DNA of 32,353 nt. Origin: Acidobacteria bacterium RIFCSPLOWO2_02_FULL_67_21 (GTDB lineage: Bacteria; Acidobacteriota; Vicinamibacteria; Vicinamibacterales; UBA2999). The position numbers and the translations under genes were made by a program. This document shows, piece after piece, positions 13,099-20,566 of this stretch; positions within the stretch are counted from its first letter, which is position 1, and each line of letters begins with the position of its first letter. The DNA is taken from positions 492 to 32,844 of the forward strand of contig MEKU01000005.1 in NCBI GenBank assembly GCA_001767195.1, in the 5' to 3' direction. Under the pieces are notes generated by a model. It did no database searches. It saw only the letters and a list, made by a program, of their open reading frames with translations, and had not been told where the DNA came from.

Positions 13099-14358
13099 CT
13101 ACTCCACCTTCGCGACCTTGGCCCCCAGCGCGTGCAGCCGTTCGACCAGCTGGCTGTAGCCGCGTTCGACGGTCTCGAGCGGCTGGACCCGGGTCTGGCC
13201 GTCGGCCGCGAGCCCGGCGGCAATCAGCGACATCCCCGACCGCAGGTCGCGGCTGTCGAGCACGCGGCCGCCCCGCAGGCGCGTGGGCCCCGTCACGATG
13301 ATCCGGTGAGCGTCGGCCAGAAACAGGTCCGCGCCCATGCCGCTCAGCTGCTCGAGCGCGAAGAGACGGAGCTCGTACATCCAGTCGTGGACGAGCGTGC
13401 GGCCGTCGGCCTGCGTGGCCAGGACGGTGAAGAGGCTCACGAGGTCGCTCGGAAAGGCCGGCCACAGGCCGGTCGTGATCCGGCGCACCGCTTTCGGCGA
13501 CGAAGGCTTCACCTCGAAGATGCCGTCCTTGAACGCACACCGCACGTTCATCCGTTTGAGGACCGCGCCGACCACCTCCATCTCGGCCTCACACGCCCCC
13601 TCGATGTCAATCTCGCCGCCGGTGATGGCGCCGACCACCGCCCAGCTGCCCGCCTCGATGTAATCGCCCCGCAACTGGTGCGTCGCCCCGCAAAGCCGGG
13701 CGGCGCCCTCGACCCGGAGCGTCGAGCTGCCAATGCCGGTCACGCCGGCGCCCAACTGCTGCAGGAACTCGCACAGCTCGACGACGTGCGGCTCCATGGC
13801 GGCGTGGCGGATCTCGGTGACGCCGTGGGCCGCGGCGGCCGCCAGCAGCGCCGTCTCGGTGCCGGTGACGGACGCTTCGTACAGGTACATCGAGGCACCC
13901 TTCAGCCCGTCCGATGCCTCGAGCAGGTGATCCGACCCGCTGCCCTGCCGCGCCCCCATGGCCAGGAGCGCCTCCAGATGCGTCGAGATCGAGCGCCGGG
14001 CCGGGAAGTCCCCCCCTGGAGGGGCCAGATGCGCCCGGCCCACGCGCGCCAGCAGGGGCCCGAGCAGCAGCACCGATCCGCGGAGCCGGCCCACCAGCGT
14101 CCGGTCTGGCGCGTGGCTGTGCAGGCGCGGAGCGCGGACCCGCAGGGTGGTGCTCCCGATCCCGTCCACCTCGGCGCCGAGATCGAGCAGCAGGCGCGCC
14201 ATGACCTCGACGTCGCCGATTCGCGGCACATTGGTCAGCACGCACTCCTCCCCGGTGAGGAGGCAGGCGGCCAGCAGCGGGAGTGCGGCGTTCTTGTTGC
14301 CTTCGACGGCGACTCGGCCCTGCAACCGGTGGCCGCCCTCTACGAGGAGTGTCGACAT
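13099..14358 (-). CDS. murA: UDP-GlcNAc 1-carboxyvinyltransferase (MurA) with Asp in place of the active-site Cys
   Basis: MurA transfers enolpyruvate from PEP to UDP-GlcNAc, the first committed step of peptidoglycan synthesis. The 419-residue product has NKNAALPLL (21-29), with the Lys that binds PEP. It retains R93 in the sugar-binding strand, FPSD with catalytic Asp at 305, and DLRSG near 371-375. The active-site loop reads PPGGDFPARR: Asp117 stands where most MurA enzymes have Cys in PGGC. Cys-to-Asp MurA enzymes are known in some bacteria and are insensitive to fosfomycin. The gene abuts murB without a gap and ends the nagZ-ldcA-mpl-pxpBC-murB-murA operon. A MurA-like paralogue with altered activity is possible but less likely. 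Confidence 0.9.
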   Translation of the reverse strand: MSTLLVEGGHRLQGRVAVEGNKNAALPLLAACLLTGEECVLTNVPRIGDVEVMARLLLDLGAEVDGIGSTTLRVRAPRLHSHAPDRTLVGRLRGSVLLLGPLLARVGRAHLAPPGGDFPARRSISTHLEALLAMGARQGSGSDHLLEASDGLKGASMYLYEASVTGTETALLAAAAAHGVTEIRHAAMEPHVVELCEFLQQLGAGVTGIGSSTLRVEGAARLCGATHQLRGDYIEAGSWAVVGAITGGEIDIEGACEAEMEVVGAVLKRMNVRCAFKDGIFEVKPSSPKAVRRITTGLWPAFPSDLVSLFTVLATQADGRTLVHDWMYELRLFALEQLSGMGADLFLADAHRIIVTGPTRLRGGRVLDSRDLRSGMSLIAAGLAADGQTRVQPLETVERGYSQLVERLHALGAKVAKVE

Positions 14359-15456
14359 TCAGCGCTTCTCCAGCAGGTAGCGGACATCCGCGTCCCCGTC
14401 GAATCCGACGAACACCGGCTCGGGCACGAGCCAGATCCCGAACCGATCCGCGACCTGCCGCTTGATTCGCGCGGCCAGCTGCAGCACATCGCGTGCCGTC
14501 GCACCGCCCCGATTGACGAGCGCGAGCGGATGCTTCGACGAAAGCCCGACGGCCCCGCACTGGTAGCCGCGCGCGAACCCCGCACGTTCGATCAACCAGG
14601 CGGCCGGCACCTTCACCGCGCCATCCGGCTGCGGAAATCCCGGGACCGGGCCGGGCGACACGGCCGCGAGCCCTTCGTACACGCCCGCGGTCACGACCGG
14701 GTTCATGAAGAATGAACCGACACTCCGGGTGTCGGGATCGGCCCGGTCCAGGACCATTCCCTTGCGGCGCCGGACCGAGAGTACTGCCTCTCGGACATCG
14801 ATCAGCCCTGGCGCCTCGATCGCGCCACGCTGCAGCTCGTCGATCAGTTCAGGATACGCAATGGCCGGCGGCCCGGCGCGGAGCTGCAGCGTCACGCCGC
14901 AGACCACGAAGCGCCCGGCATCCGTGTGCTTGAAGCGGCTGGTCCGGTAGCCGAACCCGCACTCGCCCGCGGCCAGCGCCACAACTTCGCCCGACGCACG
15001 ATCGAACGCCGTGACACCGGCAATCGACTGCGACACCTCCTGGCCGTACGCGCCGACATTCTGAATCGGCGTGCCGCCGGCGCTGCCCGGAATCCCCGAC
15101 AGGCACTCGAGTCCCGCCAGCCCGCGCAACACCGCCATCTCGACGATCGGGTCCCAGGCTTCGCCGGCGCCCGCCTGCACCCGCGCTTCGCCGTCTCGCC
15201 CGCTGAAATCAACCCCGCCGATGGCGATGTGCAGCACCAGCCCCTCGATGCTGCGATCCGCCACGACCACGTTGCTGCCGCCGCCGAGCACGACGAGCGG
15301 CACGCGGCGCGCCTCGCACCACCGGTGCGCGCGCGCGACGTCTTCGGCTGTCCGCGCCCGGAAGAACCACCGTGCGGCCCCGCCGATCCCGAGCGTCGTC
15401 ATGGGCGCCAGCGGTACGCCGGCCTCAGGCTGAATCGAACGCTCAGCGGAGGTCAA
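14359..15456 (-). CDS. murB: UDP-N-acetylenolpyruvoylglucosamine reductase
   Basis: MurB reduces the MurA product with NADPH and FAD to UDP-MurNAc. The frame contains LAPMTTLGIGGAARWF near the start, the FAD loop VVLGGGSNVVVAD, the ECLSGIPGSAGGTPIQNVGAYGQEV block, GYRTSRFK with the substrate Arg, GSFFMNPVV with the proton-donor Ser, and VPEPVFVGF with the catalytic Glu near the end. I prefer the TTG at 15456 (GAGG site 6 bases upstream, 365 residues, 14-base overlap with pxpBC). The ATG at 15495 would add 13 basic residues and has a weaker site. The next gene, murA, begins directly after its stop. Confidence 0.93.
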   Translation of the reverse strand: MTSAERSIQPEAGVPLAPMTTLGIGGAARWFFRARTAEDVARAHRWCEARRVPLVVLGGGSNVVVADRSIEGLVLHIAIGGVDFSGRDGEARVQAGAGEAWDPIVEMAVLRGLAGLECLSGIPGSAGGTPIQNVGAYGQEVSQSIAGVTAFDRASGEVVALAAGECGFGYRTSRFKHTDAGRFVVCGVTLQLRAGPPAIAYPELIDELQRGAIEAPGLIDVREAVLSVRRRKGMVLDRADPDTRSVGSFFMNPVVTAGVYEGLAAVSPGPVPGFPQPDGAVKVPAAWLIERAGFARGYQCGAVGLSSKHPLALVNRGGATARDVLQLAARIKRQVADRFGIWLVPEPVFVGFDGDADVRYLLEKR

Positions 15457-17140
15457 CGACTGCCTCGCTCTGCGCCGCAAGCGCGTCGATCGCATCCCGG
15501 TGGCTGCACGGCTGGAACTCGATCCAGTCGCCCGGCCGAAGCTGCGCGGCCAGCGGAATGTCCGCCGCGATCACCACGCCAATCTGGGGATAGCCACCGG
15601 TCGTTTGACGGTCGACCATCAGAAGGATCGGATCTCCGGACGGCGGCACCTGCAACCCGCCGATGAAAGCGGCGTCGGAGATCATCTCACCGGTCGGCGG
15701 AGCCGGAAGCGGGGCGCCGCCGGTCAGCCGATAGCCCATCCGGTCCGACTGCGGCGTGAGCGTGTACCGGGCCTCCTGCAGGCGCTCGAGCACCGCGGCA
15801 TCGAAACAGTCGATCTGCGGACCGGGGAGAATCCGGAGACGAGCCCCGTTGGACGGCACGGCGGCAGGATCCCGTCGCAGGGCCGACGTCAGTGGACGCG
15901 GCTCGCCGTGCGGCGTCCCGAGCGCAATCCGATCGCCCGCCCGGAGGGCGCGCCCGTCAAGCCCGCCGAGGCCGCTGCGCACATCGGTGGCGCGACTCCC
16001 GAGTGCCGGCGGCGTGGCAATGCCGCCGCCCAACGCCACATAGGCGCGCGCGCCTGACCGCCGCGCGCCAAACCGAAGCACGGTCCCGGTCCGGCACCTC
16101 ACCGCCTGATACCGCGGCACCTCTGCGCCGTCGAGGGATGGCTGGAGGTCCGCCCCTGCAATCGCAATCCACGTCTCCTGCTCGAAGCGCAGCTCGGGCC
16201 CCACCAGCGTCGCTTCAAGACCGGCGGCATCGGGGGTGTTGCCGGCGATGAGATTGGCAAGCCGGTGCGCGACGCCATCCATGGGCCCGGCCACGGGAAC
16301 GCCCATGTTCTGGTACCCCCAGCGTCCCGCGTCCTGAATCGTCGTCAGCAAGCCGGGTTTGAGAACGGTGAGCGAGCGGCCGGCCCTCTCGAACGCAGTG
16401 TCCGCCTTCAGGCGGACCTCGGTCCGGCTGAAGCCGGACACTACGTACGAACTCCGCTCAGAAACCGGGACGAATCTCACCTCGTCGCCCGGCGCCAGCA
16501 GCGCAGGCGGCGTGGCTGCGGCATCGAAGAGCGTCATCGACGTGCGCCCGATGATCTGCCAGCCGCCCGGCGACTCGCGCGGATAGATGCCGGTCTGCCG
16601 GCCGGCAATACCCACGGATCCGGCGGGGACGCGAACGCGCGGCATCGATTTGCGTGGGACGGCGATGGTGGGATCGACGGTTCCCAGGTACGCAAACCCG
16701 GGAAGAAAGCCGAGCATGAAGACGCGGTAAGTGCGCGATGAATGCCGCTCGACCACCTCCTGCCCGGCGCAGCCTGCGAACGCGGCCACCTCCGCCAGGT
16801 CGGGGCCGGCGTCGCCACCGTACACAACGGGCACGTCGACAACCCGACCGGCAGCCTCAACCGCCTCAGCGCCGGCAGCCTCCCCGAGCACGGACGTCAC
16901 GGCGCGCACGTCCGCCCTCAAGGGGTCCACGAACACCGCCACCGACCGGAAGGTTGACACGACGTCGCGGACGCCGTCGAGGCGGCGCTGCTCGACCTGC
17001 CGTGCCGCGGCCACCGCGCGTCCGTTGATGCCGCTGTCGAGGGCGTCCCCTGCGGCCGGCGGGGCGGCCAGCTCCATGAGCAGTGCCGAGTCTCCTGCTT
17101 CGCGAATACGCCCCGCAGGCAACGGCGACCCGTGTGTCAC
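15443..17140 (-). CDS. 5-oxoprolinase subunits B and C fused (PxpBC; KipI-KipA type)
   Basis: PxpB and PxpC, with PxpA, form the ATP-dependent enzyme that opens 5-oxoproline to glutamate; here both are one 565-residue chain. Residues 10-225 are PxpB/KipI-like, with VFMLGFLPGFAYLG (140-153) and the VRVPAGSVGIAGRQTGIYP stretch. Residues 256-565 are PxpC/KipA-like, beginning LTVLKPGLLTTIQDAGRWGYQ and including SDRMGYRL near the end. The linker (about 228-255) is the translation of a double-hairpin repeat (16399-16438). No pxpA is nearby. The gene overlaps mpl by 4 bases upstream and murB downstream, so it is locked into the cell-wall operon. Its link to wall turnover is inference. Confidence 0.9.
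   Translation of the reverse strand: MTHGSPLPAGRIREAGDSALLMELAAPPAAGDALDSGINGRAVAAARQVEQRRLDGVRDVVSTFRSVAVFVDPLRADVRAVTSVLGEAAGAEAVEAAGRVVDVPVVYGGDAGPDLAEVAAFAGCAGQEVVERHSSRTYRVFMLGFLPGFAYLGTVDPTIAVPRKSMPRVRVPAGSVGIAGRQTGIYPRESPGGWQIIGRTSMTLFDAAATPPALLAPGDEVRFVPVSERSSYVVSGFSRTEVRLKADTAFERAGRSLTVLKPGLLTTIQDAGRWGYQNMGVPVAGPMDGVAHRLANLIAGNTPDAAGLEATLVGPELRFEQETWIAIAGADLQPSLDGAEVPRYQAVRCRTGTVLRFGARRSGARAYVALGGGIATPPALGSRATDVRSGLGGLDGRALRAGDRIALGTPHGEPRPLTSALRRDPAAVPSNGARLRILPGPQIDCFDAAVLERLQEARYTLTPQSDRMGYRLTGGAPLPAPPTGEMISDAAFIGGLQVPPSGDPILLMVDRQTTGGYPQIGVVIAADIPLAAQLRPGDWIEFQPCSHRDAIDALAAQSEAVVDLR
16399..16438. repeat. REP-like double hairpin inside the pxpBC coding sequence
   Basis: Two adjacent palindromes, GTCCGCC-TTCA-GGCGGAC (16399-16416) and GTCCGGC-TGAA-GCCGGAC (16421-16438), are separated by 4 bases. 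On the coding strand they translate to the core of a linker reading GFSRTEVRLKAD. The paired-palindrome form is that of a REP/BIME-type mobile repeat. Confidence 0.75.
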
Positions 17141-18537
17141 GCCGGAAGCGCCTTCAGCAGCTTCTGATGGATCCCGCCGAACCCGCCGTTCGACATCAGC
17201 ACCACCACATCGCCGGGCTGATGCTCGTCCACGATCGTCCGGACGATATCGTCGACGAGCGGGATTGACCGGGCGCGCCGGCCCTGCGCGCGGAGATCGG
17301 CGACAAGCTGCTCTTCGGACAGGCGCTCGGCCTCGGGCAGCGTCGATCGGAAGACGGCCGCGAGCACGACTTCGTCGGCCGCGCCGAAGGCACGCGCGAA
17401 GTCCGCCTGAAACACACGACGGCAGGATGAAGCCGACCGTGGTTCGAAGATGGCCCAGATGCGCCGGGATGGATAGCCCGTCCGCAGCGCCGCCAGCGTC
17501 TCACGCACGGCGGTAGGATGATGCGCGAAATCGTCGAGCACGGTCACGCCATGGCGTATGCCGACCGTCTCGAGCCGGCGCTTGACCCCTTTGAACCGCC
17601 GCAAACCGTCCGCGAGGCGCGCCACATCGACTCCAGCCCGCCGCCCGACCGCGATTGCCGCCAGCGCATTGCGCACGTTGTGCAGTCCGAGCAGCGGCGA
17701 TTCGAACCGGCCCACGTCGCGTCCTGCGTGCCGCACCACAAAACGGGTGATACCGTCCGCATGGCTGACCTCGGAGGCCTGCCACGTGGCCCCCGGATCG
17801 ACCCCGAACGTCTCGACCGGGCTGACCGCGACATCGCGCAGGGCCGCCGCCGGCGGGCTGTCGTGCCCGAGCAGCAGCAGACCGCTGCGTGGCACCAGAT
17901 TCACGAGCCGGCGAAACGCCAGCTGCACCGCTTCGAAATTGGCGTAAATGTCGGCATGGTCGAACTCGATGTTGTTGATGACGGCGATGTCGGGCAGGTA
18001 CTTCAGGAACTTCGCCGACTTGTCGAAGTACGCGCTGTCGTACTCGTCGCCTTCGAGGACGAAGTCGCGGCCATGGCCCAGCCGGTAGCTCGAACCGTCC
18101 TGGCCAAAGTTCAGGGCCACCCCGCCGACGAGGACCGTCGGGTCGAGACCCCCATCCGCCAGCAGCCATCCCGCGAGCGCCGTCGTCGTCGTCTTTCCGT
18201 GCGTGCCCGCGACGACGATTGACCTCGACGACCAGAGGAACTGGTCGCGAATCGCCTCGGGCACCGAGCAGTAGCGAATCTTCCGATCGAGCACGGCTTC
18301 GAGCTCCGGGTTGCCCCGGGAGATGGCGTTGCCGACGATGACGAGGTCGAGCGCGGCGGACACGTGATCCTCCGCAAACGGGCTCAGGATCGGAATGCCC
18401 TCGCGCTGCAGAAAATCGCTCATGGGCGGGTAGACGTTCCGATCAGATCCCTGCACGGCGTGGCCACGCTGCTTCAACAGCGCCGCGACCGTTGCCATGG
18501 CCGTCCCGCAGATGCCAATGAGGTGAATCCGCATCAT
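17137..18537 (-). CDS. mpl: UDP-MurNAc:tripeptide ligase Mpl (murein recycling)
   Basis: Mpl joins recycled L-Ala-gamma-D-Glu-mDAP directly to UDP-MurNAc, bypassing MurC, D and E. The 466-residue product is a Mur ligase with RIHLIGICGTAM (3-14), the P-loop AGTHGKTTTTA (110-120), NNIEFDHADIY (about 187-197), the DDFAHHPTA motif and the C-terminal domain. It is Mpl rather than MurC because it carries NVYPPMS (34-40), the FEPRSASS segment and MSNGGFGGIHQKLL near the end, all Mpl signatures. The ATG at 18537 overlaps the ldcA stop as ATGA. With NagZ and LdcA upstream it forms a recycling unit. Confidence 0.93.
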   Translation of the reverse strand: MMRIHLIGICGTAMATVAALLKQRGHAVQGSDRNVYPPMSDFLQREGIPILSPFAEDHVSAALDLVIVGNAISRGNPELEAVLDRKIRYCSVPEAIRDQFLWSSRSIVVAGTHGKTTTTALAGWLLADGGLDPTVLVGGVALNFGQDGSSYRLGHGRDFVLEGDEYDSAYFDKSAKFLKYLPDIAVINNIEFDHADIYANFEAVQLAFRRLVNLVPRSGLLLLGHDSPPAAALRDVAVSPVETFGVDPGATWQASEVSHADGITRFVVRHAGRDVGRFESPLLGLHNVRNALAAIAVGRRAGVDVARLADGLRRFKGVKRRLETVGIRHGVTVLDDFAHHPTAVRETLAALRTGYPSRRIWAIFEPRSASSCRRVFQADFARAFGAADEVVLAAVFRSTLPEAERLSEEQLVADLRAQGRRARSIPLVDDIVRTIVDEHQPGDVVVLMSNGGFGGIHQKLLKALPA

Positions 18538-19457
18538 TCAACCGGGGACTCCTCGACCACCAGGGATGGCCGGGCACGAGCGCGAACACGGACGCGAACC
18601 CCGAGCGGCAGCGTCCAGCAGGGACCGGTCGTATGTCCGGAGGGAAATCCACGAAGCACCGGGCCTCGGAAGCCCGCGGCGGCCGACCGGATCACGTCCT
18701 CCACCGAGGGGCCGTCTCCGCTGCCCGTGCAGCCGCGCATCTCGCCAAAGACGATCGCCGCGGCGCGATCGAGGATGCCGCTCTGCCGCAGCTGGGTCAG
18801 CATCCGGTCGACCCGGTACGGCCGCTCGTTGACGTCCTCGAGAAACAGCACACACCCCGCCGGCGGCGTAAAAGCGAAGGAGGTCCCGAGCGAGCCGACG
18901 AGCTGCGTCATGGTGCCGCCGAAGAGCGGGCCCGACACCTCCCCTTCACGGACAACGTCCAGGCCATCGGGCTGCAGCTCGAGCCCCGTCGACCCGCCCT
19001 GCATCATGGCCAGAAGCGATTGACGGTCGTACGCCGCCTCCCCCGCCGCCAGCCGGCGCTCCAGCATCGGACCATGCAGCGCGGTCAGCCCGCACTGGCA
19101 CGTCAGCCATGAAAGCAGCGACGTGTTGTCGCTGTAGCCGACGAACAGCTTCGGCGTCCGCTGCGGCTGCCACGAGTCGAACAGGGGCAGAAGCTGGACG
19201 CTCCCGTAGCCGCCTCGAATCGCAATCAGCGCGGCCACCGACGGGTCCGACCACGCGCGCATGAAGGCGGCCGCCCGTACATCCGCCGGACCTGACGTGA
19301 ACATCGCAGTTTCGAAGATGGAGTCGTCGTAGACGGGCTCGTACCCGAGAGCCCGGAGCTCGGCGGCTCCCCGATCCAGCTCGTCGCGCGAAAAGGGACT
19401 GGCCGGCGAGACGATGGCGATCCGGTCGCCGGGCCGGACGGGTCTCGGCTTGATCAC
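18534..19457 (-). CDS. ldcA: LD-carboxypeptidase (murein tetrapeptide carboxypeptidase)
   Basis: LdcA removes the terminal D-Ala from recycled muropeptides, turning tetrapeptide into the tripeptide used by Mpl. It is a cytoplasmic serine peptidase of family S66. The GTG at 19457 overlaps the nagZ stop (GTGA) and gives 307 residues. The catalytic Ser is S109 in FVGYSDNT, the Glu lies in FLEDVNERPYRVDRML (E207, or E211 of the same motif), and the His is H275 in GFPSGHT. The long open frame further upstream is antisense-like sequence within nagZ and was not used. The end overlaps mpl as ATGA. Confidence 0.93.
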   Translation of the reverse strand: MIKPRPVRPGDRIAIVSPASPFSRDELDRGAAELRALGYEPVYDDSIFETAMFTSGPADVRAAAFMRAWSDPSVAALIAIRGGYGSVQLLPLFDSWQPQRTPKLFVGYSDNTSLLSWLTCQCGLTALHGPMLERRLAAGEAAYDRQSLLAMMQGGSTGLELQPDGLDVVREGEVSGPLFGGTMTQLVGSLGTSFAFTPPAGCVLFLEDVNERPYRVDRMLTQLRQSGILDRAAAIVFGEMRGCTGSGDGPSVEDVIRSAAAGFRGPVLRGFPSGHTTGPCWTLPLGVRVRVRARARPSLVVEESPVE

Positions 19458-20566
19458 AGGTGGCGGGCCATTTCTTCGGCGATGCGGCGATGCGCATCGC
19501 AGCCGAGGACCTCGCGATACGCCGCACCGGGCCGACCGGCGAGCGCCCCGGCCGCCAGAAACCGTTCTTTCGCCCGCCGCTGCCGCACGAGCGCGTCCTC
19601 CAGCCGCTTGTACGGAACGCGGCCGTCCTCGACGGCATGCACCAGCGCCTCCAGGACCTGCGCCTGCGCCTCGACGTCCTGCCCGCGATCGCCCGGTGCG
19701 GCCCGGCATACGAGCACGCCGTCGCACCCGGCCGCGATCGCGGCGACGGCCGCGTCGGGGACGGTGTACGTACCGGCAATGGCCTTCATCTCCAGGTCGT
19801 CGCTCAGAATGACCCCTTCGAAGCCCAGCTCCTGCCTGAGCAGCCCGCCGACAATTCGGGGTGACAGCGTCGCCGGATGCTCCTCGTCGAACGCGGGAAC
19901 CAGAACATGGGCGGTCATCATGAAGGCAGCCCCCGCCTTGATGGCCTCCTGAAAGGGCGCGCATTCCACCCGGCGGATGCGATCGGGCGGGTGCTCGACC
20001 AGCGGCAGCTCGAGGTGGGAATCCACAGATGTATCTCCGTGGCCCGGGAAGTGCTTGCCGCAGGCCGCGACACTGTTTTCCTGCAGACCGCGGACAATCG
20101 CCGATCCAAGGCGGCCGACCGTCCCGGCGTCGTCCGCCAGTGCGCGGTCGCCGATGACGGGGTTGTCGGGGTTCGTGTGAATGTCGAGCACCGGTGCGTA
20201 GTCGAGCGTGATCCCGACCGATCGCAGCTCCGCGGCGAGCGCCGATGCAAACCGGTACGCCAGCGACTCGTCGCCGCTCCGTCCGAGCGCCGCCATCGGC
20301 GGCCATTCAGTGAACGGCGCCCGGAGACGGGCCACCCGGCCGCCTTCCTGATCGACGCTCACCCAGAGCGGCCGCTCGCCGGCCAGCGACTGCAGCTCGA
20401 AGGCGAGCTCGGCCACCTGCTCGGGCGCTTCGATATTCCTGCCAAACAGAATCACGCCTCCCAATCCGAACTCGCGGGCCAGCGTACGCATCTCGCCGGG
20501 GATCGTCGTGCCCGGAAGGCTGCCGATCAGCAGCTGACCGACGGCGCGGCGGATCGATGCAGGCAT
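19454..20566 (-). CDS. nagZ: Beta-N-acetylglucosaminidase NagZ (GH3)
   Basis: NagZ cleaves GlcNAc from GlcNAc-anhydroMurNAc peptides in peptidoglycan recycling. The 370-residue product starts at ATG 20566; upstream extension would run into the divergent kinase gene. The GH3/NagZ signature is KHFPGHGDTSVDSH (171-184), including the Asp182-His184 dyad that acts as general acid/base in NagZ enzymes. The nucleophile loop is ILSDDLEM (253-260). Earlier, LGGVILFGRNI and VSVDQEGGRVARL bind sugar. There is no signal peptide, as expected for a cytoplasmic recycling enzyme. It leads the six-gene cell-wall operon. A GATAAT lies 7 bases before the ATG. Confidence 0.94.
   Translation of the reverse strand: MPASIRRAVGQLLIGSLPGTTIPGEMRTLAREFGLGGVILFGRNIEAPEQVAELAFELQSLAGERPLWVSVDQEGGRVARLRAPFTEWPPMAALGRSGDESLAYRFASALAAELRSVGITLDYAPVLDIHTNPDNPVIGDRALADDAGTVGRLGSAIVRGLQENSVAACGKHFPGHGDTSVDSHLELPLVEHPPDRIRRVECAPFQEAIKAGAAFMMTAHVLVPAFDEEHPATLSPRIVGGLLRQELGFEGVILSDDLEMKAIAGTYTVPDAAVAAIAAGCDGVLVCRAAPGDRGQDVEAQAQVLEALVHAVEDGRVPYKRLEDALVRQRRAKERFLAAGALAGRPGAAYREVLGCDAHRRIAEEMARHL

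Follow-up and report, generated by a model that had tools for sequence, protein, structure and literature searches.

The pxpBC locus

The window, i.e. the whole stretch of 32,353 nucleotides that was analysed, carries on its minus strand, at 15443-17140, a single open reading frame of 565 residues, pxpBC, which encodes the fused 5-oxoprolinase subunits PxpB and PxpC. The models of both subunits scored above their curated cut-offs within this one frame, as expected of a PxpB-PxpC fusion: PxpB spans residues 16-224 (TIGR00370, 202.6 bits for a cut-off of 145.6; PF02682) and PxpC residues 257-561 (TIGR00724, 290.7 bits for a cut-off of 230.2; PF02626). The product was also matched over nearly its full length to PDB entry 3oep (TTHA0988). 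As the PxpC proper equivalog NF045499 gave 252.8 bits, below its cut-off of 500, the 5-oxoprolinase activity of the product should be regarded as putative, i.e. proposed by homology only.

Between the two domains, the minus-strand frame reads ...SSYVVSGFSRTEVRLKADTAF... at residues ~231-249. In the AlphaFold model (mean pLDDT of 78, pTM of 0.83), both halves were confident, the lowest pLDDT (~32, i.e. below 50) fell on residues 231-253 and the part described below as a REP element had no secondary structure; the linker of pxpBC is predicted to be disordered.

Despite its 5-oxoprolinase-type identity, pxpBC sits amid genes of a peptidoglycan (recycling) operon: a muramoyltetrapeptide carboxypeptidase-like gene, mpl, pxpBC, murB and murA were found with overlapping ends at 13099-20306 of the window, all on the minus strand.

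An inverted pair of REP units in the linker

The linker sequence consists of two palindromes in inverted orientation. On the plus strand, the hairpins GTCCGCC-TTCA-GGCGGAC (16400-16417) and GTCCGGC-TGAA-GCCGGAC (16422-16439) both have a perfect 7-bp stem and a 4-base loop. The coding strand reads CGTAC-GTAG-T-GTCCGGC-TTCA-GCCGGAC-CGAG-GTCCGCC-TGAA-GGCGGAC-A-CTGC, in which outward-pointing tags (GTAG and GCAG) enclose the palindromes and a 4-base spacer separates them, a layout typical of a BIME-like REP pair. Unit A (16422-16444, minus strand) comprises the tag GTAG at 16441-16444 and the stem-loop GTCCGGC-TTCA-GCCGGAC, and unit B (16395-16417, plus strand) the degenerate tag GCAG at 16395-16398 and the stem-loop GTCCGCC-TTCA-GGCGGAC. 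The original prediction of two perfect 7-bp hairpins with 4-base loops, lying between the enzyme domains and read in frame as a linker, was thereby borne out; the limits it gave (16390-16446) take in both hairpins and the tags for the most part, and the pair with its outer tags occupies 16394-16449 on the minus strand. This dimer is open in four of the six frames, two of them on the coding strand.

In the window, the single-hairpin pattern with up to three mismatches was found three times (the element's own two arms, one of them on both strands) for 0.11 expected. Folding of the whole element gave a z-score of -8.2, and none of 200 shuffled sequences folded as well.

The REP family and RAYT genes of this genome

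Searching the window's genome with a 68-base query returned at least 61 matches (40 of 245 candidates scored). The tagged CGTAG unit, i.e. that of unit A, was found genome-wide with up to two mismatches 254 + 251 times, i.e. ~505 copies, among which a few palindromic sites were possibly counted on both strands, vs 0 and 1 in the reversed control; exact stem-loop sites numbered 32. Chance as the source of the hairpins and of the repeat family is ruled out. Stem types were assessed in a 709-kb sample (about 17% of the genome, some of its contigs having been picked for being rich in REPs), where GCCCGGC occurred 47 times, GCCGGGC 32, GTCCGGC 14, GCTCGGC 7 and GCTTGGC 5, each staying paired: the stems covary between copies, their sequence varying while pairing is kept.

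With REP_Tyr_transpos (NF047646), two genes were detected above the cut-off of 80, at 94.9 and 114.4 bits. On contig C10, the RAYT gene is flanked by REP units lying within ~150 bp of it on either side. GTAG-type REPs bear this tetranucleotide at one end of a palindrome with a stem of 5-13 bp and a loop of 2-20 bases (PMC3733652). We found the end tag, the 7-bp stem with its 4-base loop, dispersed copies with paired variation and a REP-flanked RAYT gene; the linker element is a GTAG-type REP belonging to a family of ~500 copies in this genome. A REP-like mobile element with further genomic copies and an accompanying RAYT, as had been proposed from the letters of the window, is hence present, the further copies being those of the single unit.

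The exact combination of both units was recovered only once in this genome, and in three other genomes with the exact-dimer pattern, so that the two-unit element with this exact sequence is not a frequent fixed unit. The stem type of unit B is rare, GTCCGCC being found in one of 125 tagged stem-loops of the 709-kb sample, namely the pxpBC copy; three other inverted REP pairs with perfect stems were present in that sample. No copy of the element was found by the phage search, no relatives by a related-locus search of genome contigs, and no mention of the peptide SGFSRT by the literature search.

Near the second RAYT gene (contig C26; L099 13314-13991), there is no GTAG unit of the common kind. 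This gene is flanked by repeated GTGGGGCGGGT-like segments, perhaps a repeat family of its own.

Among relatives, RAYT and REP are loosely associated, which further REP types and the incompleteness of some genomes would account for. Genomes G017, G018 and G005 gave neither a Y1_Tnp match nor a REP hit, and G015 and G031 have REPs and no Y1_Tnp match. In G012 and G006, Y1_Tnp was matched and REPs of this type are almost absent.

Fused and separate pxpB and pxpC genes among relatives

Counting this genome, 17 members of the family were identified with the fused gene (G002 was counted as fused, its gene being cut by the contig end inside the linker), and 11 of them lack a repeat of this kind. Split pxpB and pxpC genes were compared at 20 loci of relatives, and none of these junctions has a palindrome (7-bp hairpin); in the other searched families of the order, the two genes are separate as a rule.

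Linkers of the fused genes are 57-111 nt long and differ in every relative, their sequences not being alignable. Six linkers, those of G000, G004, G011, G013, G022 and G026, contain REP-type palindromes, and repeats occupy this linker in other genera too; G026 has three units and G011 half, the G022 palindrome is decayed and the G004 stem is a different one. The G002 linker has a palindrome of still another kind, of which its genome carries one good second copy; the linkers of G014, G015 and G027 contain simple tandem-like repeats instead, and those of G003, G007, G018, G005, G017, G012 and G031 no clear repeat. As to whether the linker might be conserved in genomes without the repeat, which would speak against the original prediction, the fusion is present there and the linker sequence is not conserved.

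A maximum-likelihood tree was inferred from the two domains, the linker being left out, and a separate IQ-TREE run was also made. On the linker-free tree, the fused or split state requires one change (SH-aLRT 97) and the presence or absence of a REP within the fused set also one, the REP-containing genes forming a nested group of six (support 43). The fusion is older than the repeat: whether the root is placed among the split genes or among basal fused genes, the REP group still falls inside the fused group, so that the fusion came first.

Other loops of PxpBC also hold repeat-like extra segments, in G014 (L062 1012-2736; e.g. FSRTQPFDKLRVAPSIVEGQRV, an insert outside the linker) and in G013 (L052 1483-3222). 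The linker thus appears not to be the only PxpBC loop that takes inserts.

Probable entry of the repeat into the linker

We consider it very likely that pxpBC was already fused when a REP dimer of the GTAG family entered its linker, and that this happened in an ancestor of one subclade within the family. As to how, we infer that the dimer was mobilised by RAYT, that its insertion was neutral and took place once, long ago, and that it was renewed afterwards. Entry would presumably have occurred via RAYT-dependent transposition or repair-associated copying. With four open frames in the dimer and a linker that is probably disordered and length-tolerant, a frame-keeping insertion would have cost little and been retained; conversion with REP copies elsewhere in the genome may then have renewed the insert.

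The number of insertions is where the data pull in two directions. In the three relatives checked, the linker repeat matches the dispersed family of its own genome: 55 matches were obtained for the G026 linker in G026, 39 for that of G013 in G013 (vs 3 in G000 and 2 in G022) and 26 for that of G004 in G004, with fewer or weaker matches in the other genomes tried. This reflects either repeated hits on the linker or an old insert renewed by conversion. That the linker received several independent hits from different local repeat families, as a recurrent landing or survival site, has in our view a substantial, somewhat less than even, chance of being true. The deviating stem of the G004 palindrome and the different palindrome of G002 agree with it, as does the location of 7 of 34 hairpins in the linker, i.e. 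in 5% of the gene length (p = 0.0014, kinship being ignored). Moreover, the REP stretches of G000 and G026 are 84% alike for 67-68% in the gene, with paired changes in the stems, which could indicate separate insertions, and the weak support of the REP-linker grouping (43) counts against a single entry. On the other side, one change suffices on the tree for the REP in the linker, and G000, G026, G013 and G022 have in common the A-B layout, the frame and the rare unit B, whose core CTGAAGGCGG is identical in G000, G013 and G022 and occurs in a diverged form in G026. These common features would favour one old insertion followed by renewal, while the unrelated palindrome of G004 favours a separate event in that genome; independent insertions are possible. 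Recurrent hits would alter the history of the element, not its nature.

We hold more doubtfully a broader view, in which the pxpBC linker would capture repeats recurrently and be rebuilt in several genera from whichever dispersed repeat is active in the genome concerned. If so, interdomain linkers in REP-rich bacteria would evolve largely by repeat turnover and not by point mutation.

A selected role of the hairpin, either in slowing the ribosome between the domains or in providing a second start (the GTG in GTAGTG) for free PxpC, seems very improbable to us. The strong fold of the element would suit such a role, as would another REP of this genome that gives a ccmA-like gene its stop and a ccmB-like gene an in-frame GTG start (see below), but relatives keep the fusion without any linker hairpin and there is no conserved structure in the linker.

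Finally, it is extremely unlikely that the dimer landed between unfused pxpB and pxpC, abolished the stop and so created the fusion: being open in two coding-strand frames it could in principle bridge two genes, which are separate as a rule in the other searched families of the order, but the linkers of 11 fused relatives are without a REP of this kind, none of the 20 split junctions has the hairpin, and the repeat-free fused genes of G007, G018, G005 and G015 branch outside the nested REP group. Of the two roles originally offered for the repeat, having created the fusion or having been tolerated in it, the second is thus the one retained, a REP dimer having very probably entered a pre-existing fusion.

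Comparison with known systems

Intragenic REPs have already been described, in-frame inserts encoding 20-30 residues, and Di Nocera et al. (2013, PMC3733652) proposed linkers or loops as the places of tolerated (neutral) inserts; REPs were also reported at about the same recB site in two Xanthomonas species (PMC3733652). The pxpBC linker REP is a clear new example of this known phenomenon and not a new kind. It resembles the GTAG REPs of PMC3733652 in its end tag GTAG, short palindrome, inverted pairs, REP-flanked RAYT and in-frame insertions, and differs from them in host lineage and stem sequences, and in that the insert connects a two-enzyme fusion, against which it can be dated. With its predicted disorder, the pxpBC linker would be just the situation suggested by Di Nocera et al. 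for neutral intragenic REPs (PMC3733652).

Rickettsia palindromic elements (RPE) are likewise palindromic repeats translated inside functional proteins (cited in PMC3733652). Intragenic R. conorii repeats matching RPE-4 and RPE-6 are of the CGTC type and have no associated transposase (PMC3733652), whereas the element studied here has a GTAG tag and a REP-flanked RAYT, a distinction drawn by description and not by sequence. The PxpB-PxpC fusion itself is not new: TTHA0988 (PDB 3oep), a PxpB-PxpC (= KipI-KipA) fusion, also has both halves in one chain and in the same order, but its connector shows no REP-like peptide in the alignment.

The interest of the case lies in selfish DNA turned into part of a protein, with an order of events, fusion first and repeat later, that the tree settles. 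It also points to local repeats as a source of material for the disordered connectors of REP-rich genomes, an idea testable across the linkers of many gene fusions.

Other intragenic REPs of this genome

In-frame REPs were surveyed in the 709-kb sample, with ORFs picked by length and codon-position GC. The sample contains 114 GTAG stem-loops vs 10 in the reversed control. Only 25 of the 114 lie inside ORFs, despite the ~84% of the DNA that such ORFs cover; coding DNA is therefore depleted of REP insertions, though these are not rare in it. Alanyl-tRNA synthetase (AlaRS; L097 5256-8006) contains one in-frame REP, with extra residues around 272-300 compared with 3hxu. Three tandem in-frame REPs were found in Maf (L109 7809-8477), at residues ~110-150, where a gap separates two aligned parts of YhdE, and four in-frame units between the two domains of a GT4 glycosyltransferase (L110 11680-12873). 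Genes for a BrxX-like methyltransferase and an S9 peptidase carry in-frame REPs too.

One further REP unit lies where a ccmA-like gene meets a ccmB-like one (L044 ~1496-2182). The TAG stop of the ccmA-like gene comes from the GTAG of this unit, and the ccmB-like gene, whose ccmB match is below the model cut-off, can start at a GTG that lies in frame within the unit.
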